In this document: positions 88 to 20,459 of the stretch, piece by piece
Position numbering within the stretch: position 1 is the stretch's first letter
Layout of the letters: every line of letters begins with the position of its first letter
Source: a virus
DNA length: 25,032 nt
Virus record (IMG/VR): IMGVR_UViG_3300018426_000146
Coordinates: 1-25,032 of that record
Direction: 5' to 3' (one strand)
Translations under genes and position numbers: made by a program
The notes under the pieces: model-generated
Database searches by the model: none
Told to the model about the DNA's origin: nothing
The model's input: only the letters and a program-made list of their open reading frames with translations

Positions 88-795
88 TTAGTCATCGTTA
101 ATCACAATCATCCAGCCGCTTTTGGGGCCATCAATCATCCACCTGCGCTCGAAGTCGCTGCGATCAACCCTTACATAGGCACCGCTCAACTTCTTCTCAT
201 GCGTGCCCTTGTGCATATCAGGCATGCCGGCAGGGTCATGAATTGTTAGGCCGTACATGTCGTAGCCCGTCACTACAACCCAGTGCCCTGGCCCATACGG
301 GCGCTCACCTTTTGACAAGTCTCCTTTGGCGAGAATCCCAACAGCTACAGGCCGCCCCTGATCAATTAAATCGAACAGCAGCGACATGCTGCCATATTGC
401 ATAAACACGGCCCGCAAGCCCAAGCTGCGCAGCGCCAGTATCTGAGCATTAACTGAGGTTGTATCGCCAAAGCGCTCACGAGTCAGGTTGTACTCGTCGT
501 CAGAATGCACAACGTCTTTCTCAGCCGCGAGCATTGCTGCTGCACTTGAGAAGCATTCGCGATAACCCTGCCCTGACTCGTTGTCGTGCTGCTTGAAATA
601 CGGCACAAGCAACCACTGCGACTTGCCGCTGGTTTTCCAAGTTTCAAACCAGTCAGAGTCACGGGCTAGCAACTCAGCCGGCATAGCCTCCTCAAGCTGC
701 TGGATTGCAGCAATTTGATGCGGGGTGCCCCTGTAGAACTGAAAGAAAGGGAGCAGCGCTAACGGTGCCATAACAAACAACGCAGCGCGTTTCAC
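88..795 (-). CDS. C39-like cysteine peptidase, probable endolysin
   Basis: Seen: 235 residues with a hydrophobic N-terminal segment (about residues 5-20) that could be a signal or signal-anchor, followed by a papain/C39-like fold. The likely catalytic residues are Cys81 (context RECFSSAAAML), His171 (GPGHWVVVTGY) and Asp187 (IHDPAG), in the order of the peptidase C39-like family. The substrate motif VPYFKQ just before the Cys is also typical. Start is GTG at 795, overlapping the TGA of the upstream 56-aa gene, so the two are probably translationally coupled. Known: C39-like domains cleave peptides, and phage copies near holin-like genes are often treated as peptidoglycan-degrading lysis enzymes. 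Inference: with the membrane/coiled-coil protein at 987-1238 it forms a lysis cassette. A role in virion maturation cannot be excluded. Gene identity as a C39-like peptidase is firm; the lysis role is moderate. Confidence 0.8.
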   Translation of the reverse strand: MKRAALFVMAPLALLPFFQFYRGTPHQIAAIQQLEEAMPAELLARDSDWFETWKTSGKSQWLLVPYFKQHDNESGQGYRECFSSAAAMLAAEKDVVHSDDEYNLTRERFGDTTSVNAQILALRSLGLRAVFMQYGSMSLLFDLIDQGRPVAVGILAKGDLSKGERPYGPGHWVVVTGYDMYGLTIHDPAGMPDMHKGTHEKKLSGAYVRVDRSDFERRWMIDGPKSGWMIVINDD

Positions 796-1261: not shown

Positions 1262-1519
1262 ATGGCAGACACACCAGACGACAGCAATGAACAGCAGAAG
1301 GACGGACCAACGCTTGCTGATGGCGTTCGGCTTATTGTTCTCGGTTGGTCTGCGACCCTGCTGACTATCTCTTACTTGGGCATCTTTCCAAGCATGAAGA
1401 TGGATTCAACTTTTGTAGCATCTTTGCTTACAGGCGCCATGGCCGGCTTTGGAATTGAAAGAAAATCTGGTAACGCAACTAAAAAAGACGCACCTAAAAT
1501 TCCAACAAACGGAAAATAG
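1262..1519 (+). CDS. Small two-helix membrane protein (85 aa)
   Basis: Seen: from the ATG at 1262 the product is 85 residues: an acidic polar N-terminus (MADTPDDSNEQQKDG), a hydrophobic helix (about 22-42, VRLIVLGWSATLLTISYLGIF), a short MKMDST linker, a second hydrophobic segment (about 48-64, FVASLLTGAMAGFGI) and a lysine-rich tail. A start at 1202 in the same frame would add 20 unlikely residues inside the opposite gene, so 1262 is preferred. No Shine-Dalgarno is evident. It is the first gene of the plus-strand island, with a three-base gap to the next gene. It resembles small cyanophage membrane proteins, some of which are listed as holin-like (recollection). Holin function is possible but unproven. 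Confidence 0.6.
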   Translation: MADTPDDSNEQQKDGPTLADGVRLIVLGWSATLLTISYLGIFPSMKMDSTFVASLLTGAMAGFGIERKSGNATKKDAPKIPTNGK

Positions 1520-1522
1520 ATC

Positions 1523-2032
1523 ATGAAACGCTCTTTACTGTTCCTGCTTGCCTTGGGCGTTGCAGCCCCAGCACAGGCAGACCTTGTGCATCAGATCTCG
1601 TCTTCTGTGCAGCTCAGTGTTGACGCAGCAGCAGCGCAAACAACACGCTTAGGCTCTACCTACTCAGTCAGTGGTTCTGGGGTGAGTACAACCGATGGCA
1701 CCACTGCAAACGTGCTAGGCGGCTTTGGCAATGTCACCAACGGCGTGCCTGCTATCACCAACATCACGGCATCACAAGCCACTAGCGGTAACGCCTTCAG
1801 CTTTTCGCAGAGCTACATAGAGGGCGACAGCACCAGTACCACCAGCACAAGCTTGACTAATGGCGCAGTCACTGCTTTGCCGTTGCTGGGGCAGACCACA
1901 ACCACAGGCGGGGGTGTTGCTGGATCACTCGCAGGCACCGTGACTAACGGTCACGCAGTTACCGTAACTGCAGGCGGTACAGGTACATCGGTCATCGGCC
2001 AAACCATCACCTCCCTGACTATCGGTGACTGA
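1523..2032 (+). CDS. Secreted Ser/Thr/Gly-rich protein, paralog A
   Basis: Seen: 169 residues with a clear signal peptide (MKRSLLFLLALGVAAPAQA, cleavage near residue 19). The remainder is low in charge and rich in Thr, Ser, Gly and Val, with alternating beta-like stretches and no cysteine. Residues 46-54 (TYSVSGSGV) recur in the next gene at its residues 52-60. Other notable segments are NVTNGVPAITNITASQATSG and FSFSQSYIEGD. The stop overlaps the next start (TGATG at 2030-2034), so the two are coupled. Similar tandem secreted proteins occur, as I recall, in marine cyanophages without an assigned function. Inference: an exported extracellular or virion-surface beta-structured protein. No enzyme motif is visible. 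Confidence 0.75.
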   Translation: MKRSLLFLLALGVAAPAQADLVHQISSSVQLSVDAAAAQTTRLGSTYSVSGSGVSTTDGTTANVLGGFGNVTNGVPAITNITASQATSGNAFSFSQSYIEGDSTSTTSTSLTNGAVTALPLLGQTTTTGGGVAGSLAGTVTNGHAVTVTAGGTGTSVIGQTITSLTIGD

Positions 2033-2454
2033 TGCGCGTTCTAGTTTTTGTGCTGCTCTTTGCAGGTTCTGCGAGTGCGGTGCCCGTGACACCTCAGTTC
2101 AGGACTGGGACTATGACCAGCAACACGCGCAGTACCACGCAAATCGTCGAAAACATCAAATCAGTCGATTTCGCTACTGGCTACACCTATTCCGTGAGCG
2201 GGTCTGGGGTGACCAGCAGCGGGGCACTGATTCCGCAAGCGGCTACAACCCAGAGCGTGACGATGGAGGGCGTGCAATCGCAATGGCAGGGGCTACCGCT
2301 CAGCAGCAAGCCTATTTATCAGCAGCAAACCCAAGGCGCAGCATTTCAGCTGACAGAGCACTACAGCGGGCCAGGATTGCAGACGGTGACCACCGTGCAG
2401 CGCACAACTTCGATCGAAACCGTCACGGACTCCACCTCGGTGTTTGGGCCTTAG
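2032..2454 (+). CDS. Secreted Ser/Thr-rich protein, paralog B
   Basis: Seen: 140 residues with a signal peptide (MRVLVFVLLFAGSASA, cleavage near residue 16). The mature part is Ser/Thr/Gln-rich and carries the nonapeptide TYSVSGSGV at residues 52-60, shared with the preceding gene. The C-terminal part (FQLTEHYSGPGLQTVTTVQRTTS) looks like repeated beta strands. It starts at the ATG overlapping the upstream TGA. The stop at 2452-2454 lies inside the sequence encoding the signal-like segment of the third gene. Inference: it is exported and acts with its two neighbours, perhaps as parts of one surface assembly. Known function: none that I recognise. Confidence 0.75.
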   Translation: MRVLVFVLLFAGSASAVPVTPQFRTGTMTSNTRSTTQIVENIKSVDFATGYTYSVSGSGVTSSGALIPQAATTQSVTMEGVQSQWQGLPLSSKPIYQQQTQGAAFQLTEHYSGPGLQTVTTVQRTTSIETVTDSTSVFGP

Positions 2455-2465
2455 CGCTCTTGCCG

Positions 2466-3167
2466 ATGCCCGCCTGGGGCCAGGTCAACGCCACAGCAGC
2501 ACCTAGCTCCGTCAGCAACGGGTCAGTCACAAACATGGCTGTGCAGACGATGGGTGGACCTTTTCCTACTTACCACCTAGGCCCTAATCAACACAGCTGC
2601 ATGGGTCCGCAGCTCAGCATCAGCCCCTTTGTCACCAAATCGCATAGCTACACCCTGCCGCGCACGCAATACCAACGCACGCCCTTCTACAACCCGCTTG
2701 ATGCTGATGAAGACAACGTGCCTGACAAGCCGGGCGAAATTATGTTCTATCAAGAGACTCCCACTGGGCAAAAAGATAGTCATGCATTGAACTATGGAAT
2801 TAGTGCCACTATTTCAATCCCCTTAGACGGTGGCCTGACAGCACGCTGCAAAGCTCTGGGCGATACACAGCAAAAACTCCTTGAGCAGGTGCTGGCCCAC
2901 AAAAAATTAGATTATGAATTAGGCCGCCTGAAATTTTGCGGGCAGCAAGCCAAGGAGGGCGTTATCTTCCGCCCAGGCAGCCAAGCGGCGCAAATCTGTG
3001 CCGATGTCATGGTCATCCCCAAACCTGGCCAGGTGCTGCCACATAAACACGAGGTCAACGCCCCAGAGCCCGACGAAGAGCCATTACCGCTCGATTCCTA
3101 TCTCTTTGCGCCAGACATCGTTCACGAACAGAAAGACGGCGAGGCTTACGCCCTAGCAACGCCTTGA
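2466..3167 (+). CDS. Third protein of the secreted cassette, start uncertain
   Basis: Seen: the frame is open to TGA at 3165-3167. From about residue GQVNATAAPSSVSNGSVTN onward it reads as a real protein: four cysteines (contexts HSCMG, ARCKA, KFCGQ, QICAD), a charged helix (TQQKLLEQVLAHKKLDYELGRL) and an acidic tail (EPDEEPLPLD). It resembles a conserved cyanophage protein I recall only as uncharacterised. A typical signal-peptide core (GVWALALLPMPAWG) precedes it, but there is no ATG, GTG or TTG in frame before that core until far upstream inside the preceding gene. The listed ATG (2466) and a TTG at 2460 both fall inside the core. The true start is therefore unresolved. The last 113 bases overlap the opposite gene at 3055-3693. 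Confidence 0.6.
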   Translation: MPAWGQVNATAAPSSVSNGSVTNMAVQTMGGPFPTYHLGPNQHSCMGPQLSISPFVTKSHSYTLPRTQYQRTPFYNPLDADEDNVPDKPGEIMFYQETPTGQKDSHALNYGISATISIPLDGGLTARCKALGDTQQKLLEQVLAHKKLDYELGRLKFCGQQAKEGVIFRPGSQAAQICADVMVIPKPGQVLPHKHEVNAPEPDEEPLPLDSYLFAPDIVHEQKDGEAYALATP

Positions 3168-3693
3168 TCTTGTTCACAATCTTCTTGATTGTTGGTTTGA
3201 TGAGCTTTAGCAGCAGGTCAGCTAGCGGCTTTGCCAGCAGCGCGGAAGTCGTAGCTAGAAGTGCAATTGATGTTGTTGTGACAACTGCAGGTATCTCAGG
3301 CAAGCCATCAACGATCTGCTCAGCAATAGACCGCTTAGGCTCTGATTTTTTCTCTTCTTCAATCTGAATTTTTGGGATTGTTGGCAGCTCTGCAGTGGGC
3401 CTAGGCGGCTGTTCAGATTCACTTTGCCGCTGCCCCCCTTGCGGCTCCAAAATTGTCAGCTCGCTGGGCCTGTAGTCCATCGGGTTGTAGGACGGTATCT
3501 GACCATCAGGGCAAGCAATCCCTACTCGCTTGGGGTCGTCTTTGAGAAGCGATGGGTTAAGCCCAGCATCAGGATGCACCGCAACACAGCCAGGCATATT
3601 CATTACAGGCCGTGGAAACTGCACAGGCCGAATGACAGGCGGCTTTGGTGTCGGTATCTCCCGAATCTGTATTTGCGGAATCTTATTGGGCAC
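3055..3693 (-). CDS. Proline-rich membrane protein with basic C-terminus
   Basis: Seen: 212 residues. The N-terminal third is Pro/Arg-rich (IPTPKPPVIRPVQFPRPV). Next comes a two-cysteine segment (PGCVAVHPDAG ... IACPDGQIPSYNPMDYRP) and then a Pro/Glu-rich linker. About residues 136-156 form a hydrophobic helix (VVTTTSIALLATTSALLAKP), and a strongly basic tail ends in RDRNRAVMALRRALGR. The CPDGQIPSYNP and TTSIAL..TTSALLAKPLADLLL segments match, as I recall, conserved but uncharacterised cyanophage proteins, so the gene appears real to its end. Its start overlaps the preceding minus gene by 11 bases. Its 3' end runs 113 bases antisense into the plus-strand cassette. Function unknown; a membrane-anchored partner of the cassette proteins is only a guess. 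Confidence 0.7.
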   Translation of the reverse strand: MPNKIPQIQIREIPTPKPPVIRPVQFPRPVMNMPGCVAVHPDAGLNPSLLKDDPKRVGIACPDGQIPSYNPMDYRPSELTILEPQGGQRQSESEQPPRPTAELPTIPKIQIEEEKKSEPKRSIAEQIVDGLPEIPAVVTTTSIALLATTSALLAKPLADLLLKLIKPTIKKIVNKIKALLGRKPRRLSVRERCLAQRDRNRAVMALRRALGR

Positions 3694-3907
3694 TGAACGG
3701 CAAAGCAGGGCCAGTTTCAGTCGGCATCATGCCTTGCATCTGCTTTGATGTGGCGTCAAGCACTAGAAGCACAACTTCTGCCCTGATGCGCTGAATAGCC
3801 TCATCTTTCATCTTAGGTGCGTTCAACGCCACAAAGATTGCAAGGCCCGACATGCCAGCAGAAAGGCCGAAAGAAACAATGGCAAGTGCGTTGATGATCT
3901 TTTGCAT
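3683..3907 (-). CDS. Small membrane protein (74 aa)
   Basis: Seen: 74 residues with one hydrophobic helix (about 5-30, INALAIVSFGLSAGMSGLAIF), an amphipathic middle (PKMKDEAIQRIRAEVVLLVLDATSKQ) and a short tail. The ATG at 3907 lies only six bases downstream of the U-tract of a hairpin terminator on the same strand, and no Shine-Dalgarno is visible. The 3' end overlaps the next minus gene (3055-3693) by 11 bases, so the two are probably co-translated. It resembles small cyanophage membrane proteins of unknown role (recollection). Transcription would need terminator readthrough or an unseen promoter. Confidence 0.65.
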   Translation of the reverse strand: MQKIINALAIVSFGLSAGMSGLAIFVALNAPKMKDEAIQRIRAEVVLLVLDATSKQMQGMMPTETGPALPFSAQ

Positions 3908-3982: not shown

Positions 3983-4342
3983 TCAGAAAGAGTATTTCAG
4001 GCCAAGCTTGACATTAGAGGCCAGATCCTCATCGCCAGTCATGAAGGCATATTCGCCATAGGCGCCAAGCTCGTCGGTCACGGCAACATTCAGGCCAGCT
4101 TTACCAGAAAACTCGGTGTCGCTGTCGCCATCATCAGGCATCAGAAAAGCAGGCCCTGCCTGAACATAAGCAGCGGCAGTTTCGCTCAGTTCAATGTCGC
4201 CGCCAAAATGCGTCTCAAGCAAAGTGCCTGAATAATCGCTGCCTCCGAAACCAGAATTGGTTTCTACATTGGCGTATGGTCCAGCCATCACAGGTGCGGC
4301 TGCCATGACGCAAGCAGCGCCTAGGAGAAAATGGCCTTTCAT
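3983..4342 (-). CDS. Small outer-membrane beta-barrel protein (lom position)
   Basis: Seen: 119 residues with a signal peptide (MKGHFLLGAACVMAAAPVMA, cleavage near 20). The mature 99 residues alternate hydrophobic and polar residues in short strands, with Gly/Asp turns (PDDGDSDTE) and a C-terminal LKYSF. A terminal Phe preceded by aromatic and alternating hydrophobic residues is the usual signal for outer-membrane barrel assembly. Known: lambda carries lom, an outer-membrane barrel gene, just after J. This gene sits in the equivalent place after J and the fibre. Inference: it inserts in the host outer membrane and may change the cell surface, for example against superinfection. The sequence is not recognisably Lom itself, hence no symbol. 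A terminator follows directly. Confidence 0.7.
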   Translation of the reverse strand: MKGHFLLGAACVMAAAPVMAGPYANVETNSGFGGSDYSGTLLETHFGGDIELSETAAAYVQAGPAFLMPDDGDSDTEFSGKAGLNVAVTDELGAYGEYAFMTGDEDLASNVKLGLKYSF

Positions 4343-4739: not shown

Positions 4740-6050
4740 TTAGCCCTCGATAAGTATGTTGATTGTGCCTGAGTCAAACGTACTAGTGCCGTCATCTGCA
4801 AGCAACTGCAGACGATCGAGAGTCCCAGTCAAACCTTTGTATCCAGCTGTCATCCCAGTGGTGCCAGTAGTGTTGCTGTAATCAAACAAACCTGTGAAGG
4901 CCCAGGCATTTCCACTGTAATTAGAAAGTACAACTTGACCGCTTAAGCTATTATGCGCGGCTCCCGAATAAAGAGATATTCCGAAGCTGCTACTAATAGA
5001 AGATGATGTAACGCCCCCAGTCAAAAAATTGCTGGTGCTTTGATAACCCGTAGTTTCCATGCCTCCGCTATCACCAATGCGAATTAAATAATGAGCAGCA
5101 CTATTCAAACTAATGCCAACAAAGGCAAAAGTAATTTTTCTAGCCCAGCTTGGAATACTAGAAAATGTAGCTGACGTGCCTGAAACTGTGATTGCAGTTG
5201 ACCGCTCAAAACGGCTGCGATCTGCAAAACTTAAAACGCCTGAGCCATTAGTAACAATCGCTTGATCTGCTGACCCATCAGCCAATGGCAGGCTGTAATT
5301 AGTTGTCGAAATTAGACCTGTTGAATCAATAACAAAGCGGCTAGTTGGTGTAGTTCCATCATTGCCATCGTTGACACGAACAACAAAGTTTGCAGCTTCA
5401 TCGTCTCCCGTGCCGTCATGGTTAAATTCAACCTCGCCAAGCCTTGAAAGCTCCCCGCCAGATTGTTCACCCTCAAAAATTAGTTTGCACTCACGGCCAC
5501 CGTCTGTGTCTTCCTCGGTGTTGTTTTTAATCGTGACATACGGTGCTGAACCCTCAATTTCGATAAGAGTGCCAGGGGCGCTAGTGCCAACACCAATTGC
5601 ATCAGCAGAACCATCAACAAACAATAGATTTGCGTTAGTGTCGCCCTCAACGCGGAAATCCATTGCTGCGCCGTCTTCATTGAAGACAATCGCGCTAGTG
5701 CCAAACTCGGCTCGTTCAACCCCACCAGCAGAGACGTTTAAGGTGTCCGCTGCGCTGCTGTAGATCCCTGTATTTACATCATCAGCAAAAGCTATCCCAG
5801 GCGTTGCAACTGCTCCATCTTCCACCAGCAAGGTGCCGTCTAGCTCTCGCAGAATTATCCACCCGTCATTGGCAGCGTTTCTAATCTTCAGCTGGTTTGC
5901 AGTCGTATCGGCCCACCACTGAAAGGCAAATGTCGTTGCGGGTTCTGTCGCTCCTGAGTTATTGCTAACAATCGCGTCCAGCACGCTATTTATGTCAGAA
6001 CGAAAAGCCGCGCCCGCCTGATTGGCTATGTCGTAGTCATGTTGAGCCAT
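4740..6050 (-). CDS. Tail fibre protein
   Basis: Seen: 436 residues. The N-terminal region (MAQHDYDIANQAGAAFRSDI ... SNNSGATEPATTFAFQWWAD) is a recurrent phage-fibre module followed by a shaft of short Gly/Asp/Thr-rich strands (GIAFADDVNTGIYSSAADTL, VGTSAPGTLIEIEG). About residues 275-436 form a separate beta-rich C-terminal domain starting near RFERSTAITVSGTSATF and SIPSWARKITFAF, a module often found at the ends of phage fibres. Known: such fibres trimerise and the C-terminal part binds receptors. It follows J with a 45-base gap. Inference: side or central fibre contacting the host surface. Codon use and strand match the structural operon. Confidence 0.8.
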   Translation of the reverse strand: MAQHDYDIANQAGAAFRSDINSVLDAIVSNNSGATEPATTFAFQWWADTTANQLKIRNAANDGWIILRELDGTLLVEDGAVATPGIAFADDVNTGIYSSAADTLNVSAGGVERAEFGTSAIVFNEDGAAMDFRVEGDTNANLLFVDGSADAIGVGTSAPGTLIEIEGSAPYVTIKNNTEEDTDGGRECKLIFEGEQSGGELSRLGEVEFNHDGTGDDEAANFVVRVNDGNDGTTPTSRFVIDSTGLISTTNYSLPLADGSADQAIVTNGSGVLSFADRSRFERSTAITVSGTSATFSSIPSWARKITFAFVGISLNSAAHYLIRIGDSGGMETTGYQSTSNFLTGGVTSSSISSSFGISLYSGAAHNSLSGQVVLSNYSGNAWAFTGLFDYSNTTGTTGMTAGYKGLTGTLDRLQLLADDGTSTFDSGTINILIEG

Positions 6051-6095
6051 TCTGAGTTTGCCTAAGCTCTTTCAATAGCTGCATTATGGCATTGG

Positions 6096-9000
6096 CTAAC
6101 CTAGCCTGCCAAATCCAACGGCTGTCCAGCGGAAATCCCTGCTGATGCTCGCATCACTGGAATTTTTGAAATGAACCGTGAAGCCTGTGCCGCTCACGCT
6201 GCTTAGCTCAAAGTAGTCCCCGCTTTGCATGTTTTGCGCTGTGATGCCAACGCTTGGCAGCAGGCTATCAACGCCGCCTAGAACTGCAGTGCCTGTGAAA
6301 AATGCGTTTGTGAACGCAATGGCCTTAGCTCCTGCGCCGCTACTAATTGCGGTTTCGCTGTTCTCAGTGCGGCGGTCCAAGGTCGCCACATAGCCCAACT
6401 CATCAACCAAAATGTTTTCTACTGGGTCGTCACTTGTTAGCTGCGTTCTGAATTGGAAAGCCCTGCCCCTAAAGTTGCCACTAGCAAACTCCTGGTAATC
6501 GCTGTAGGTCGGGCTCCCGCTTGGGTCGTCATTAGTTGATCTAACCTGCAAGGTTGCATTAACACTGTTTACAGCAGCGCCATCAATATCGTCCCATGTG
6601 TCAATACTTGCGGTGTGATCGTCTATAAGGTCGTTTGGCAGAAAGCCCCTTGTCACAAAGTGCCTTGTCAAGCCAACGCTAATGACCGCGCCAAAATCAA
6701 GAGTGCTAGCAAATTCGTAGGTTCCGCTTGAATTGATGTTGCCCAAGAAATCGACATTCCGCTCTAAATCGTCAATGTTTTCGGTAATGTCATCCCATCG
6801 GTCATCACCAGATAAAGTCAAAGCATCGAAATCAGTTGAATAGAAAACATCGGTTTTTGCCCCAGTAAATGGGTCTGCATCCTCTCGCCTTGATTGAACA
6901 GTTTTGATCCCCAAGGTGTCAGGCAAATCAATGATCACCGATGTCTCAGCCGTGCTTAGGCGCCCGCCATCATCAGCAAAAACCGCAATAATCTCACCCT
7001 CAACCAAAGGAATTACTGCGCTAGTGGAGTTGCCTGCAACTGGTCCAATTAGATCCACACTATTGCTAAATGTGCCACTGCCATCAGTTCGGTTTGAGTG
7101 CCGAATGTAAACTTTGCCGCCAATTCTTACGTCAAGATCAACTGTTTCATCCCAACTCAAAAGGCCCTGATTCGCGCTAGTCGCCACAAAGCGCAAGTTT
7201 TGAACATTGCCAGGATTACTGGTTTTCCCGACGATTGTTCTTTGCAGTGTAGTCGGAACTGAGCGCTTACCAATCGCACTGATCGCAACAACTCGGAAAG
7301 TAAAAAGCCCAGTGTCATGAGTATGAAAAGTTAGCGAATTGTAAGGCGTCGTGCCTAAAACTTCATATGTGTTGTTATCTTCTGTTTTGTAACTAACTTG
7401 ATAAGATGATGCGATATTGACGTTTTTCCATGAAACATCAATTTCATTTATAACGCTATTGCCGCGTTCGACTAGCTGCTCATCAATATCTAAGCCAGTC
7501 GGTGAGTCTGGGTTTCTATTTAGAATAGAAATAGACCTAGGCTGTAGTTCTAAATCTTGCTCAACGTGGTTATATTTTGACGTGTTGTGTGCAAGCCCAA
7601 CAATCGTATAAACCTCATCCTCTTCCGTAATAGAAACAACTCTAAACAGCTGGCTTTCTAGGATGCTGGTTTCAATCAGAAATACCGTTTGCGCTGCTGG
7701 TGTTTGACTAAACGCGGTGCTGACTGAAATTGTTGTGCCTGTGCTAGCTGCGTTAATTGTTTGTTGCTCAACGCTGCCATTAGGCAAAACGACGCTCATC
7801 GTGTCACCTACGGCAACTGTGATTGCTTGGTCAATCGTGATGTCAGTGCCGCTAACGCTGGAAACACGGCCAGCTTTGCGAGCGCCTGCCTTCATCCTGT
7901 CCATCACCTTGATGATGTGGCCAGGGCGAACAATCGCACCATCTAGGCCAACTTTGAAGGTGACTGTCTCTGATTCGTTTTGCTCTTGATACAGCAGCCA
8001 TTTGCCGATTCTGTGCGCCTGTCCCCTGCTTGTGCAGCCAAACGCCGCAATGCGCGTCTCAAGGATGCCGTAATCAATGACGGCTTGCTGATCCTGCACA
8101 TATTCAATCTGTTGCTCATAGGCTTGCTCTGGATCGTTCCACGTCACCAACGCAACTGTGTGCCGTGACTTCAGGGAGCTGCCTTCATAAGTGAAATCGC
8201 CGTTGATGACATTGGCATTGGTGAACAACGCTGCAGGATCGCTGGGGCTGTCCTGAGAAAACGCAATCTGCCCCGCTGACCAGTAAGCCATGCCACGGAA
8301 AACCGAAGCAAAGTCCTGAATGACGTTGAACGCCTCATCTCTGGACTGCATGTAGACGTTACAGGTGAAACGGGGCTCAAGGCCGCCTTCACCATCAAAA
8401 ACCATCTCATTACAGTATTTTGAAATCTCATAAAGGGACCACTTATCAACTTGCGAGGAATCAATGAAACGCCCTAACCCATAGCGATCAGAGACAATCA
8501 AGTCCCGCATAATCCAAGCAGGGTCGCTAGTCCAAGCCGTTACGAACCCGCCATTCCACACACCTGAATAGGTTAAAGCGCCAGTGTTGACGTTGACGGT
8601 CGCGTTGTTTGGGATTTGTACTTTGACACCTTTGATGTCATAAGAACGAGTTGGCACATCGCTGAATTGCGTTGCATCAAATCGCAAACCAACCAAAGCA
8701 GAAAGGGGATACCTAAGCTTGCTGTCTATCGTTTCGCTAATTGATCGAAAAACTAACTGCCGATATTCATCAACGCCATCGTGACGGCCTGAGACTCTTG
8801 TCAGCCTTATGTTCCATGGGGCGCTGCCTGTAAGCGTGATTCGATGTGAGCGCTCATAAGTTGAGGTGCATTTGCCTAGGATCTTTTTAACAACTGCGGC
8901 AATATATGCGCCGCCGAAGGGTTGGTAATCAATCTGATATGTGATTTCTGCCTTTTTAAGACCATTAATGACTACAAAAAGCTGAGGGATGGCAATAGTA

Positions 9001-9455
9001 ACAAGCACCGAATCCACATTAGGATTAGTGACAGTCCGAACTACGCTGTCTCCGTCATTGTCTCCAACAGAAGTATTTACACTAACAAGGCTTTCGGAAG
9101 ACGGAAAATTAGGAATATAACTTTGTGCCTGAGTGCCTTCACGAACTTCAATATCTGTAACACTGAAATTGATTGCACCGTCATGACCCGTAATCGGAGT
9201 GTCATCTAATAAAATTGATTTGCGGTCTTCATAAACAAAACCTTCAATTTCTCCTTCACTGATGAGGTCAACAATGCGAACGCTTGATTTACTGAAAAGC
9301 GAGTTGTCATCATCGCTTACCGTTGGCCCCGTTGGCCCAGCAACAACAACCGTTTGATTGACAACAGGCGTTGGGGCAGGTGGTGGTGGTAGCGGCCTTG
9401 GATTTCTTTTTTTCTTTCTGCCCCCGCCAGAGCCTGCAATGTTTTCCATGTTCAT
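6096..9455 (-). CDS. J: Tail tip / host specificity protein J
   Basis: Seen: 1119 residues from the ATG at 9455. This start is chosen because GGAGG lies seven bases upstream and the ATG overlaps the stop of gene I (TAATG). An in-frame start at 9533 would lie inside gene I. A basic, proline-rich N-terminus (GGGRKKKRNPRPLPPPPAP) precedes the lambda J-type baseplate hub region (motifs VRIVDLISEGEIEGFV, IVSDRYGLGRFID, FRGMAYWSAGQIAFSQD). Two fibronectin-III-like domains lie at about residues 650-850 and a C-terminal lectin-like domain at about 1040-1119 (GDYFELSSVSGTGFTVHF). Known: J forms the tail tip and recognises the receptor; its distal part sets host range. It ends the M-L-K-I-J run, as in lambda (1132 residues there). 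Confidence 0.92.
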   Translation of the reverse strand: MNMENIAGSGGGRKKKRNPRPLPPPPAPTPVVNQTVVVAGPTGPTVSDDDNSLFSKSSVRIVDLISEGEIEGFVYEDRKSILLDDTPITGHDGAINFSVTDIEVREGTQAQSYIPNFPSSESLVSVNTSVGDNDGDSVVRTVTNPNVDSVLVTIAIPQLFVVINGLKKAEITYQIDYQPFGGAYIAAVVKKILGKCTSTYERSHRITLTGSAPWNIRLTRVSGRHDGVDEYRQLVFRSISETIDSKLRYPLSALVGLRFDATQFSDVPTRSYDIKGVKVQIPNNATVNVNTGALTYSGVWNGGFVTAWTSDPAWIMRDLIVSDRYGLGRFIDSSQVDKWSLYEISKYCNEMVFDGEGGLEPRFTCNVYMQSRDEAFNVIQDFASVFRGMAYWSAGQIAFSQDSPSDPAALFTNANVINGDFTYEGSSLKSRHTVALVTWNDPEQAYEQQIEYVQDQQAVIDYGILETRIAAFGCTSRGQAHRIGKWLLYQEQNESETVTFKVGLDGAIVRPGHIIKVMDRMKAGARKAGRVSSVSGTDITIDQAITVAVGDTMSVVLPNGSVEQQTINAASTGTTISVSTAFSQTPAAQTVFLIETSILESQLFRVVSITEEDEVYTIVGLAHNTSKYNHVEQDLELQPRSISILNRNPDSPTGLDIDEQLVERGNSVINEIDVSWKNVNIASSYQVSYKTEDNNTYEVLGTTPYNSLTFHTHDTGLFTFRVVAISAIGKRSVPTTLQRTIVGKTSNPGNVQNLRFVATSANQGLLSWDETVDLDVRIGGKVYIRHSNRTDGSGTFSNSVDLIGPVAGNSTSAVIPLVEGEIIAVFADDGGRLSTAETSVIIDLPDTLGIKTVQSRREDADPFTGAKTDVFYSTDFDALTLSGDDRWDDITENIDDLERNVDFLGNINSSGTYEFASTLDFGAVISVGLTRHFVTRGFLPNDLIDDHTASIDTWDDIDGAAVNSVNATLQVRSTNDDPSGSPTYSDYQEFASGNFRGRAFQFRTQLTSDDPVENILVDELGYVATLDRRTENSETAISSGAGAKAIAFTNAFFTGTAVLGGVDSLLPSVGITAQNMQSGDYFELSSVSGTGFTVHFKNSSDASISRDFRWTAVGFGRLG

Positions 9456-10150
9456 TACATATCCTCCACTGTTAGGCCAGCCGAAACAACCACGCTGCCT
9501 ACTCTCATTCTCCCGTAGCACAGCGGAACGCAAGCGCCTTGAGCCGTTAAATTCACAGCACCGTTAAAGATGTAAGAAGCTCGGTTGTCCGCAATCTCGT
9601 TGTTTTCAGACGCGAAGGAATCCCTGGCCCGTTGCCTAGTAATCCCACCAGTAGCGCCAAAAGAACCGCCGCCAACAGGATCAGCCGTTATTTGCGGTGA
9701 TAGCAACTGAGAGGTGCCGCTAAGGATCAAAGAAGCACCAATAGAGCCAACAGCGGCAGCAGCAGTTGCACCAATAACGCCACCAGCTGCAGCTGAGCCA
9801 TAAAAGATAGGTGCAGCAATAGGCCCCAAAAGGATTGCTGCTGCTACAAGGGCAACTCCTGCGAAAATTCTTCCAACACCGCCACCACCTGCACCTTGCA
9901 AAACGGGCGTGATGCTGATCTCCTCAGATTGACCCGTTGGGTTGTTGATCTCGTCTAGTGACTCCATAGCATCCTTGCCAACCTGCACCATGTAAGCGAT
10001 GCCACGCTCTGCCGAGTCGCAAAGCTCCTGTTTGAAGCCGTCAAAATTGGCAGAAAGTGCCCTGATCGCTTCTGCTGGTGTATTCAGGTCGAAGCTATGA
10101 AAGCGGCCAAATCTCTTACCTAATTCTCCTCTCAATACAACCTTCTTCAT
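9455..10150 (-). CDS. I: Tail assembly protein I
   Basis: Seen: 231 residues. The N-terminus (KKVVLRGELGKRFGRFHSFD, then TPAEAIRALSANFDGFKQEL) matches the lambda tail assembly protein I family. A Gly/Ala-rich hydrophobic stretch spans about residues 86-150, and the C-terminal portion ends in the PLCYGRMRVGSVVVSAGL segment typical of the family. Known: gpI is needed for assembly of the tail initiator with J, K and L and may not remain in the mature virion. It starts four bases inside the stop of K (overlap) and overlaps J, in the lambda order K-I-J. Confidence 0.88.
   Translation of the reverse strand: MKKVVLRGELGKRFGRFHSFDLNTPAEAIRALSANFDGFKQELCDSAERGIAYMVQVGKDAMESLDEINNPTGQSEEISITPVLQGAGGGGVGRIFAGVALVAAAILLGPIAAPIFYGSAAAGGVIGATAAAAVGSIGASLILSGTSQLLSPQITADPVGGGSFGATGGITRQRARDSFASENNEIADNRASYIFNGAVNLTAQGACVPLCYGRMRVGSVVVSAGLTVEDM
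9463..9467 (-). promoter_or_regulatory. Ribosome binding site for J
   Basis: A full GGAGG on the minus strand, seven bases before the ATG at 9455, located within the last codons of gene I. It decides the J start in favour of 9455 over the longer in-frame reading. Confidence 0.8.
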
Positions 10151-18074: not shown

Positions 18075-20459
18075 TCAGAGGGTGTTGTTGCCGCGTGAGA
18101 AGGAAGCGGCATGACGCACAGCCATGTCAACATCCTGCATTGCCACGACACGAACGGTGCCACTGGTGCTGTTGGTGTAAGGATCAACCATCAGATCCAA
18201 GCCGGAGAAGTAGCCGATCAGCAGGTCAGCGAAGTTGCCGAACCACAGGTCGTTGCTTTCAACTTGGTTGCTCACCAGACCGGCGTAGCCGTTGACTTCG
18301 CCACCCTCAAAGATGAACTGACCAGAGCCAGAATCTTTGGTTGCAGTCTTCAGAGCGCCGCGCATTGCGGAGTTCATCAGATACACAGGGGTGCCAAGCA
18401 AAGCGTTGGAACCAGCAACGTCAGACTCAAGTGCAACAACCTCGGCGAAGGTCGGGGTGTTAGCGGCGAAGTCCTCGGTGCTGATGCCGGTGGTGTTCTT
18501 CAGACCTAGGGGCTCGCTAGAACCGCCAGTGCCATACAGACCAGCCAAGTCAATCTTGAGAGCCAGAACGGCAGCCAGATCGCGGCGGATCATGTTCTCA
18601 ACGTCAACGCTGCTTTGGATCAGCAGGCGACGGGAGTAGTCGTTGTAAGCAGCGACGGTGCGGGGCATCATCGTCACTTGGTCCACGGTCTGGTTGGACT
18701 CGGTGGGAGAGCCAGACTCAGCAACCCAGTAAGCGGTAGCAGCACCAGACTGACGGGGGATAGCCACGTTGCCAGTCAGACCAGTCAGCACGGTTGCGCC
18801 GGCTTGATCCAGTGCGCTGCTGTTGCGCAGGATGTCGATGAAGGAACCACCCAGCAGTTCGGTAGCAACGAGGTTGCCGCCAGCAGATGCGGTGCCAACA
18901 GTCAGGTCGCGGGTGAGAACTTCCTGAGGGATGGTAATACCACGGGAAGCGCGGCCCAGCTTGGCAGCAGCAGCTTCAGATGCCTCAATCTCAAAACCAG
19001 CAGCTTCGCGAGCAGCACGGTCAGTGGGGTTGGACAGGTAGTTGAGAGCACGCAGCCAGGAGAAAGAACGGGTCTCTTTTTCAGAGAGGCCAATCTCGCC
19101 AGCGGTGGTGTCAACGGGCTTGATTTCTTGTTGACCCATTTTTTCTAGGAGTGCGGAACGGAGTTCCTCCAAGCCACGAGAATTGATGATGAATTCTTGA
19201 GCAAGCTCAGAGTTGTTGGTACGCTTACCAAGGGCAAGCATTTCGGCAGCTTCTTTAGCTTTGGCCTCGGCGGCCTCTGCGCGGAGAGCCCCGATATCTG
19301 GGGTTTCGGACATGGTTACCTCAAAGGTGTTGGTTTGCACGGCAGAGGCCGTTTCAACGTCTCCATTGTGCTGGAAACTGCGACCGATGCCAACCGAATT
19401 ATCGGCTGGAACAGTCACTAAACTTACCTCAAATGGCTGGTAAGAAGTAGCACGATAGGTGACAGGATCGGTGCTCCGATCTTCATCCATCGCGTTGATT
19501 TTGTAGCCAAAACTGACGTTGCGGATGATTCCATCCTTGATCAGTTCCTGCATCTCGCGGCCAAGCTCATTGTTGGCCATTTTGACCTTCGCATAGGCCC
19601 GCTTATCTTTGATGTATGCACGTTCAACAACACCAACAATCCGATCAGCATCGTGTTGGTAAAGAAGCGGCGCACCATCATTTAGACGAGACATGTCCAT
19701 TGCATCGTCACTCATGTTGAGCACTTCCATGCCGAAGTAACGCTCAACTGGCTCTTCAGAGGCAAACGGAAACTCAAGGGTGCGATCGTCTTCTTCGTCC
19801 TCGTAAAAATCAACCGCGTGTGCCCGCTTAAGCACCTCGCCGGCAAAACTACGAAGAGAAGCAATCTTGGTCAGGGTGCTGAAACGATGCCCAACGAGGC
19901 GGTCAGTTTCCTCAAACCCATCGTCACCTTCGCGATAAACGCGGATGAGCGCGGCAGGATCATCTTCGTCTGCGTTGATAGTGAACGAGGAGTCAGGAAC
20001 ATCAATGCTGCCCGATTTCGCAATGCGGGTGATGCGGCCACGAGCCGTGCCTCCGCTGCTGTCCCACCGCACAAAGTCCCCGACCTTGAGATCATCAGGG
20101 CCTGCACGCAAGCTTCGGTCCTGCGCATCGGTAATTGCTTCAGCTTTCATTTTACTCCAAGATTGTCCGGGGTCTCCGCCCCATGCTGCCCAAGCTACAC
20201 GACCTTTGCTAGGGTAACCATCTTCGTCAGGCGTAAATCCTTCGCCTTGTTTGTCAACCTCGTGCCTGGCAAACCAAGCATTCATCTCGCGAACAGTATC
20301 AACAGAAAGTTCATCGCCAGATAAGATCTGAGTTGCACGACGTGCAGCAACTTCAGTACCGCCAGCTTCACCGTCTGCCTTCCAATCGCGATAGCGCTGA
20401 GCTTCTTCACGCATGCCCTCGGTGGGAGTCAGGTTGATTTCCTTGCCGTTGACATTCAT
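18075..20459 (-). CDS. Prohead protease / major capsid protein fusion
   Basis: Seen: 794 residues in four parts. 1-115: helical module (ARRATQILSGDELSVDTVRE, RVAWAAWGGDPGQSWSKMKA) known from cyanobacterial and phage proteins. 125-197: a small barrel (KVGDFVRWDSSGGTARGRIT). 215-362: HK97-type prohead protease with His269 (LLYQHD) and Ser316 (RNVSFGY) as likely catalytic residues. 383-794: HK97-fold capsid, with a helical delta-like scaffold about 383-500 and body motifs VATELLGGSFIDILRNSSAL and GNVAIPRQSGAATAYWVAES. Known: protease and capsid are usually separate genes, but fusions occur in some phages. Self-cleavage would be needed to release mature capsid. Odd: a strong internal ribosome site precedes Met383, so the capsid may also be made alone. 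ATG at 20459 overlaps the portal stop. Confidence 0.88.
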   Translation of the reverse strand: MNVNGKEINLTPTEGMREEAQRYRDWKADGEAGGTEVAARRATQILSGDELSVDTVREMNAWFARHEVDKQGEGFTPDEDGYPSKGRVAWAAWGGDPGQSWSKMKAEAITDAQDRSLRAGPDDLKVGDFVRWDSSGGTARGRITRIAKSGSIDVPDSSFTINADEDDPAALIRVYREGDDGFEETDRLVGHRFSTLTKIASLRSFAGEVLKRAHAVDFYEDEEDDRTLEFPFASEEPVERYFGMEVLNMSDDAMDMSRLNDGAPLLYQHDADRIVGVVERAYIKDKRAYAKVKMANNELGREMQELIKDGIIRNVSFGYKINAMDEDRSTDPVTYRATSYQPFEVSLVTVPADNSVGIGRSFQHNGDVETASAVQTNTFEVTMSETPDIGALRAEAAEAKAKEAAEMLALGKRTNNSELAQEFIINSRGLEELRSALLEKMGQQEIKPVDTTAGEIGLSEKETRSFSWLRALNYLSNPTDRAAREAAGFEIEASEAAAAKLGRASRGITIPQEVLTRDLTVGTASAGGNLVATELLGGSFIDILRNSSALDQAGATVLTGLTGNVAIPRQSGAATAYWVAESGSPTESNQTVDQVTMMPRTVAAYNDYSRRLLIQSSVDVENMIRRDLAAVLALKIDLAGLYGTGGSSEPLGLKNTTGISTEDFAANTPTFAEVVALESDVAGSNALLGTPVYLMNSAMRGALKTATKDSGSGQFIFEGGEVNGYAGLVSNQVESNDLWFGNFADLLIGYFSGLDLMVDPYTNSTSGTVRVVAMQDVDMAVRHAASFSRGNNTL
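19318..19322 (-). promoter_or_regulatory. Internal ribosome binding site for the capsid part
   Basis: GAGGT on the minus strand followed after four bases (AACC) by the ATG at 19313, codon 383 of the fusion. Initiation here would give a 412-residue scaffold-plus-capsid protein, about the size of a normal HK97-type capsid precursor. Confidence 0.6.

Follow-up and report, generated by a model that had tools for sequence, protein, structure and literature searches.

Phage lysis of Prochlorococcus and Synechococcus frees a large share of ocean primary production, and how the many cyanophages that appear to lack spanins cross the outer membrane of these hosts is a puzzle. A small group of genes in a lambda-like cyanophage contig puts this puzzle into a defined and testable form. 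The contig, IMG/VR record IMGVR_UViG_3300018426_000146, is 25,032 bases long, and its entire length is referred to here as the window. The minus strand carries every convincing gene of the window, from about 24.9 kb down to a putative endolysin gene (88-795), except four consecutive plus-strand genes, A, B, C, and D, that form an island at 1262-3167 within the tail/lysis region. The initial annotation had recognized this island, and the layout of the open reading frames confirmed it; that the two minus-strand genes downstream, E and F, belong to the same cassette had been missed. As shown below, A, B, C, and D together with E and F are one conserved cyanophage gene cassette by sequence comparison, and the products are predicted to be inner-membrane proteins (A, E, and F) or Sec-exported proteins (B, C, and D). 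We tentatively propose that, in place of spanins, the cassette serves to disrupt the outer membrane during host lysis, a function that we rate at somewhat less than an even chance.

Gene A (1262-1519; 85 aa) is separated by 3 nt (1520-1522) from gene B (1523-2032; 169 aa), which encodes a Ser/Thr/Gly-rich protein with a signal peptide. Gene B shares a TGATG overlap (2029-2033) with gene C (2032-2454; 140 aa), whose product also has a signal peptide. The tight coupling that had been proposed for the island held at these two junctions. Gene D (2283-3167; 294 aa) starts not past the C stop codon (2454) but within C, which it overlaps by 172 nt in the -1 frame. On the minus strand, gene E (3055-3693; 212 aa) overlaps the 3' end of D in antisense by 113 nt (3055-3167), and gene F (3683-3907; 74 aa) follows. 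D/E antisense overlaps of about 65 to 220 nt were common in homologs. The island is thus flanked by minus-strand genes, E on one side and the gene at 987-1238 on the other.

Homologs of the exported proteins were found by tblastn in 297 (B), 405 (C), and 442 (D) GenBank phage records, all of them named cyanophages or marine or uncultured phages. Judged by these matches, the cassette appears to be present in at least 442 GenBank cyanophages, which are marine with some freshwater representatives. The homologs were not scattered singly. Among non-redundant loci that were retrieved by D alone and had sufficient flank, C was adjacent in 56 of 56, B was adjacent in 55 of 56, E was convergent downstream in 62 of 63, and F was present in 30 of 31, so the expectation that the island genes co-occur in a fixed order was borne out. 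Across 153 non-redundant loci, co-occurrence, order, and orientation hardly varied, and the order B-C-D/E-F(-A) was nearly invariant in T4-like and lambda-like phages. The commonest arrangement, with B, C, and D on the plus strand and E, F, and A on the minus strand, accounted for 43 of 153 non-redundant loci and was T4-like. T7-like phages keep E-A-C-D; in P-SSP7, these are genes 042-045, which lie on the same strand as their neighbors and lack B. An E-A-C-D core, or C-D plus E, was kept across the unrelated T4-like, S-TIM5, lambda-like, and T7-like backbones. Most marine cyanophages that were examined have the cassette, and it is usually encoded opposite to their remaining genes. In Syn9, gp165-167 are the sole three plus-strand genes of 61 in 40 kb, and B-C-D is inverted in P-HM2, P-SSM2, and P-SSM4 as well, with E sharing the island strand in P-SSM4.

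In a scan of 84,980 bacterial and archaeal species genomes, C homologs occurred on five contigs only, each of which carried other cassette genes. We therefore rejected a host origin of C and regard it as a phage gene and these contigs as phage derived. Metagenome-assembled contigs labeled Chloroflexota, Euryarchaeota, Lewinella, and Formosa (our loci L185, L187, L188, and L189) carry the cyanophage cassette, which looks like cyanophage contamination of those bins.

The families themselves were catalogued previously. Clustering in 2010 assigned the T4-like genes to T4-GC 234 (E), 235 (D), 236 (C), and 237 (B) (PMC3037559), all of which were listed as hypothetical, and we found no description of the island, of the C/D overlap, or of a module that extends beyond the T4-like phages. 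None of the articles searched used the names DUF6322, DUF6450, T4-GC235, or T4-GC237.

The internal start of D was the most distinctive feature of the cassette. The D frame reached back into C in the -1 frame at 149 of 151 loci, and in 132 of 134 C homologs, the start codon occupied the same position of the alignment, at a distance from the C stop codon that was mostly 163 or 169 nt; the corresponding out-of-frame overlap in the window is 2283-2454. Across 145 loci, the start codon was ATG in 122, GTG in 10, TTG in 4, and CTG in 0, with no start in range in 9. The D start codon straddles two codons of C, with its first base in the third position of one and its other two bases in the first two positions of an invariant Trp codon, which was TGG in 132 of 132 homologs. 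In the 106 sequences with a four-fold degenerate C codon at the D start, this first base required 3 parsimony changes on the tree, compared to a median of 39 at four-fold sites and 15 at the next most conserved site, and it was the most uniform of 83 tested columns. No D-frame stop codon was present across the overlap in the 134 homologs, compared to 0.0525 stops per codon upstream in C. The chance that the D frame would stay open under synonymous shuffling was a median of 0.054 per sequence; for the window by itself, it was 0.11. Because related sequences are not independent, the column-wise comparison carries more weight. From these comparisons, we infer that the internal D start is under strong selection.

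Amino acid constraint on the N-terminal extension of D was weak (wobble identity of 0.37 versus 0.31 and 0.57 versus 0.46), so we make no claim for its sequence beyond staying open and basic. The wobble positions at columns -3 and -8 from the D start were unusually conserved in C homologs, in a GGAGTG-like context, and perhaps represent the D ribosome-binding site. A -1 programmed frameshift from C to D was set aside, as no slippery heptamer was seen where C ends and an internal start that is conserved offers the simpler explanation. Database records treat the overlap in two ways: it is annotated for Syn9 and P-HM2, and for S-SM2 and P-SSM7, C is unannotated and D is extended upstream across it (L192:11897-12331 and L027, about 5684-6148). 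The C/D pair is a clean and widely conserved out-of-frame overlap of a kind that annotation misses.

Family searches placed each product in a group without a supported function, as the initial annotation had stated for similar cyanophage proteins. PHROGs 564, 650, 848/1755, and 570 as well as DUF6322 and DUF6450 are annotated as unknown. A matched DUF6450 (PF20048) with 57 bits (curated cut-off, 25) and PHROG 21865/721; B matched phrog_564 (E = 2e-49); C matched DUF6322 (PF19847) with 115.1 bits (curated cut-off, 30.6) and phrog_650; and D matched phrog_848 (E = 2e-72) and PHROG 1755. E matched phrog_570 (E = 1e-50), and F matched phrog_568. No member carried an assigned function except B, which is annotated "OMP1" in the S-RSM2 record, a label that we found unsupported. 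The name "plasmid stability" that PHROG 568 and many GenBank records give to F was likewise rejected for want of sequence support. A search of the cassette against NCBIfam gave no useful match.

The sequences and the family consensus indicated two hydrophobic helices in A, joined by a short loop. The second helix contains small residues, and the C-terminal tail is hydrophilic and basic. The depositor notes of P-SSP7, with genes assigned by profile, list two transmembrane segments for A, one for E, and a SignalP hit for C; the hydropathy threshold used here called one transmembrane segment in most A homologs. A had no holin family match in Pfam, PHROG, or NCBIfam, where only DUF6450 and PHROGs of unknown function were returned. 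The N-terminal region of E is rich in Pro and includes two conserved Cys; E also has one transmembrane segment at about residues 136-160 and a basic C-terminal tail, and an N-out/C-in topology is predicted with some uncertainty. F has an N-terminal transmembrane segment and ends in an ETGPALPF motif that represents a conserved ETGPA(L/I)P C terminus of the family; 115 of 118 F homologs had one transmembrane segment.

Signal-peptide-like N termini, scored by a simple rule, were kept in the homologs of B (127 of 132), C (128 of 147), and D (135 of 135), which agreed with the initial prediction of secretion. B and C are paralogous (hhalign probability, 97.3%) and have YSVSGSGV and AF-F-E-Y type motifs in common. 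The export signal of D lies at about residues 46-66 (nt 2418-2480), after an N-terminal extension that is basic and about 50 aa long; the homologs had a median of 53 residues ahead of the hydrophobic core. The hydrophobic segment ends in a small-X-small site and, on that basis, is probably cleaved. D homologs also have four invariant Cys. The AlphaFold model of C (predicted local distance difference test [pLDDT], 77; predicted template modeling score [pTM], 0.42) contained two very long beta-strands of 23 to 24 residues (26-48 and 115-138), and that of D (pLDDT, 73; pTM, 0.44) had a beta region and, after it, a helix of 42 residues. In BFVD, D matched only cyanophage relatives plus, more weakly, unannotated proteins. 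Searches of PDB sequences with the B, C, and D profiles gave nothing for D and chance-level matches only for B and C. Neither the C nor the D model had a significant fold match to aerolysin- or lysenin-type beta-barrel pore formers (lysenin E of 0.05 for C; TM-scores below 0.3); the recurrent barrel matches reflect long hairpins and were not used.

Regulation was examined in T4-like loci. A TAAATA core was present at positions -70 to -16 upstream of B in 64 of 86 loci, mostly about 28 to 38 nt upstream, compared to 8.7% in shuffles. The same core was present upstream of C, D, E, and F at 0 to 6% and upstream of A at 18%. The late promoter reported for S-PM2 and related phages is NATAAATA (PMC2984593). 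Some of the B cores read ATAAATA, and a similar number read CTAAATA, which differs by one base from the published consensus. A NATAAATA-type promoter just upstream, by which T4-type late genes are recognized, was thus found ahead of B-C-D in T4-like relatives, and in these phages, late transcription of B-C-D from a separate promoter is predicted. This result is not directly transferable to the window because the window phage is not of the T4-like type. No promoter was recognized on the plus strand of the window, where a sigma-70 scan of the island gave fewer matches than shuffles. The suggestion that the island is a module with its own regulation therefore stood for the T4-like relatives and did not gain support in the window itself.

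The genes next to the island pointed to lysis. In the window and in lambda-like relatives, the cassette adjoins P1-P2-LYS. P1 (987-1238, minus strand; phrog_26178) encodes an 83-aa protein with an N-terminal transmembrane segment and a probable coiled coil, P2 (792-962, minus strand; phrog_2738) encodes a 56-aa amphipathic protein, and LYS (88-795, minus strand) encodes a C39-like peptidase that matched PF13529 and phrog_10051 "endolysin" (E = 2e-55). P1, the first gene of this lysis operon, was present in about 30 non-redundant siphovirus loci. The arrangement seen in the window, with LYS, P2, and P1 on the minus strand, A through D on the plus strand, and E, F, and a phage outer-membrane beta-barrel gene (OMP; discussed below) on the minus strand, was found in 18 of the 153 loci. 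P2 also lies beside the cassette in P-SSP7, P-SSP2, and S-SBP1, and in DSL-LC03, A is followed by two endolysins, one of which is a phage lysozyme (PF00959). In P-SSP7, E-A-C-D-P2 lies between the tail fibers and the small terminase, a slot that is occupied by an endolysin in P60 and by the holin in T7.

LYS is a credible endolysin because its N-terminal domain recurs with varied catalytic domains and a relative of its peptidase is fused to a glucosaminidase in P-SS2. Specifically, the N-terminal domain was found with a phage lysozyme domain in DSL-LC03 and, weakly (E = 0.002), in the annotated P60 endolysin. Cyanophage endolysins looked modular in general, with an N-terminal domain of about 50 aa before differing catalytic domains (88-795 in the window; L024:10021-10689; L194:33352-34029); this domain is possibly a cyanobacterial wall-binding domain.

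A survey of 677 genomes (PMC6139136) identified 91 phages without spanins, including more than 20 that infect Prochlorococcus or Synechococcus. It put forward replacement of spanins by a type I inner-membrane protein together with an outer-membrane protein as one possibility and mere fragility of the host membrane as another. The cassette is present in eight of the phages on this list (Syn9, S-RSM4, S-SM2, P-SSM2, P-SSM4, P-SSM7, P-HM2, and P-SSP7), and single cassette genes were matched in S-SSM5 and S-ShM2. E, with its predicted topology, would fit the type I layout that the survey proposed. In the mechanism that we envision, A, a holin-like protein with two helices, and the bitopic proteins E and F would be placed in the inner membrane late in infection, while D, with its Cys residues, and the two beta-protein paralogs B and C would be exported, either to the periplasm or to the outer membrane. 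Translation of C and D would be coupled by their overlap, which would also set their ratio. The holin and the adjacent endolysin would first open the inner membrane and cut the peptidoglycan. Through E, acting as a tether or a trigger, the exported proteins would then rupture the outer membrane, and they would probably do so as an oligomer rich in beta structure. The gene set, with its exported products, is common to T4-like, T7-like, lambda-like, and S-TIM5-like cyanophages; the late-type promoter was seen in one lineage and the lysis neighborhood in others. The apparently new finding is that unrelated backbones share a single module, one that combines a conserved out-of-frame start with a late promoter, as predicted, and with lysis-related surroundings.

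Several results weighed against a role in lysis. In most T4-like phages, the cassette lies amid replication and photosynthesis genes, with no endolysin identified nearby. It was not found in P60 or in the examined parts of Syn5 and P-SS2; these three phages are on the spanin-less list, so the cassette is not the whole answer. No cassette member matched a known holin, spanin, or pore former in Pfam, PHROG, or NCBIfam, and no lipobox-like motif was seen in A through F, OMP, P1, P2, or LYS. For the latter reason, we did not file the cassette as a classical spanin, although it may work like one. E has no signal peptide, and charge was the sole basis for placing its N terminus outside. Finally, the C and D models reached no more than moderate confidence (pTM, 0.42 to 0.44), and a Foldseek search of PDB folds with them yielded no significant match (best E, 0.31 for D and 0.019 for C, the latter to a phage tail protein).

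The export of B, C, and D is compatible with other roles at the cell surface. Late-exported B, C, and D, with or without OMP, might coat or plug the outer membrane and thereby prevent sibling phages from adsorbing to infected cells or debris. Such surface remodeling or superinfection exclusion would agree with beta-rich, Ser/Thr-rich exported proteins, a late promoter, unusually wide conservation, and the phage outer-membrane barrel gene that is often nearby. We consider it improbable, since exclusion genes are usually variable and receptor specific, whereas this set is common to myo-, sipho-, and podoviruses, and since it leaves the inner-membrane partners A, E, and F, the endolysin neighborhood, and the T7 lysis slot unexplained. 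We gave still less credence to a late channel or porin in the envelope of the infected cell that would serve nutrient, metabolite, or redox exchange. The "OMP1" name of B in S-RSM2 (itself unsupported) and the long beta-strands in the C model would suit such a role, and the cassette adjoins psbA, psbD, or pstS in several T4-like phages. B, C, and D, however, had no porin similarity in Pfam, PDB, or NCBIfam, and the neighbors vary from phage to phage (Hsp20, psbA, hli, or tail genes) while the cassette stays constant. The late promoter and the occurrence in small T7-like phages also argued for a basic phage function.

The initial annotation had proposed an exported assembly on the host or virion surface, and we consider a fiber or coat on particles or on the cell surface to be about as improbable as the porin. 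The late promoter would suit it, as would a weak resemblance of the C fold to collar and upper-tail proteins (E of 0.019 to 0.048, not significant). The virion part of the proposal did not gain support: B, C, and D carry Sec signals and would not normally reach virion assembly in the cytoplasm, and the genes of the module lack the tags that structural proteins carry in two records. By our reading of the tags, virion proteins of P-SSM4 are marked "similar to S-SM1 protein" and T4-GC 234-237 are not (compare PMC3037559), and the S-TIM5 record labels several nearby genes as virion structural but not B through E. Least probable in our estimation is host takeover at the envelope apart from lysis and adsorption, such as a block of host secretion or of a cell division step. 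The families are of unknown function, no homologs were found in host chromosomes, and the products would be in the membrane and periplasm, all of which would be compatible with takeover; against this, the promoter is late rather than early in T4-like phages, and specific support is lacking. Disruption of the outer membrane during lysis is the explanation that we favor.

Two further features of the window deserve mention. OMP (3983-4342, minus strand; PF24653 Phage_OMP, 130 bits) is an optional neighbor of the cassette, and its distribution coincides with that of the cassette only in part. It adjoins tail fiber genes, a position reminiscent of lambda Lom; a J-like tail tip protein gene follows at 6096-9458 on the minus strand, with more tail genes beyond. 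The minus-strand open reading frame at 18075-20459 (794 aa) is, by eye, an apparent fused protease-capsid gene with a prohead protease-like region and a major capsid protein.

Compared to known lysis proteins, A resembles class II holins in size, in its two hydrophobic segments and short loop, in the small residues of helix 2, and in its basic C-terminal tail. It differs in having no holin family match and in lying beside an endolysin only in some backbones, and P1 or P2 may be equally good holin candidates.

The closest parallel to the cassette as a whole is the two-component spanin. In these systems, the o-spanin is a lipoprotein of the outer membrane and has a lipobox, and the i-spanin is an inner-membrane protein with an N-terminal transmembrane segment and a periplasmic domain. 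An embedded or overlapped out-of-frame gene pair represents two of the three known spanin architectures, and lambda Rz/Rz1, T7 gp18.5/18.7, and T4 PseT.3/PseT.2 are overlapped two-component spanins. The cassette departs from this plan in that no lipoprotein signal is present anywhere in it, the first gene of the overlapping pair, C, encodes a cleavable-type signal peptide and no transmembrane anchor, and six genes are involved rather than two. In addition, the candidate tether E has a C-terminal transmembrane segment, unlike the i-spanin, and is usually encoded on the other strand. The likeness to two-component spanins lies in the production of envelope proteins from out-of-frame overlapping genes (with the C/D overlap kept in 132 of 134 homologs), in the position beside a lysis operon or in a lysis slot in some backbones, in the conserved Cys, and in the expected late expression. 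It is conceivable, though on balance unlikely, that the cassette represents a third, lipoprotein-free kind of outer-membrane disruption system, built from multiple proteins and present in most phages of marine picocyanobacteria regardless of tail type. If so, such a system would account for the spanin-less appearance of these phages.

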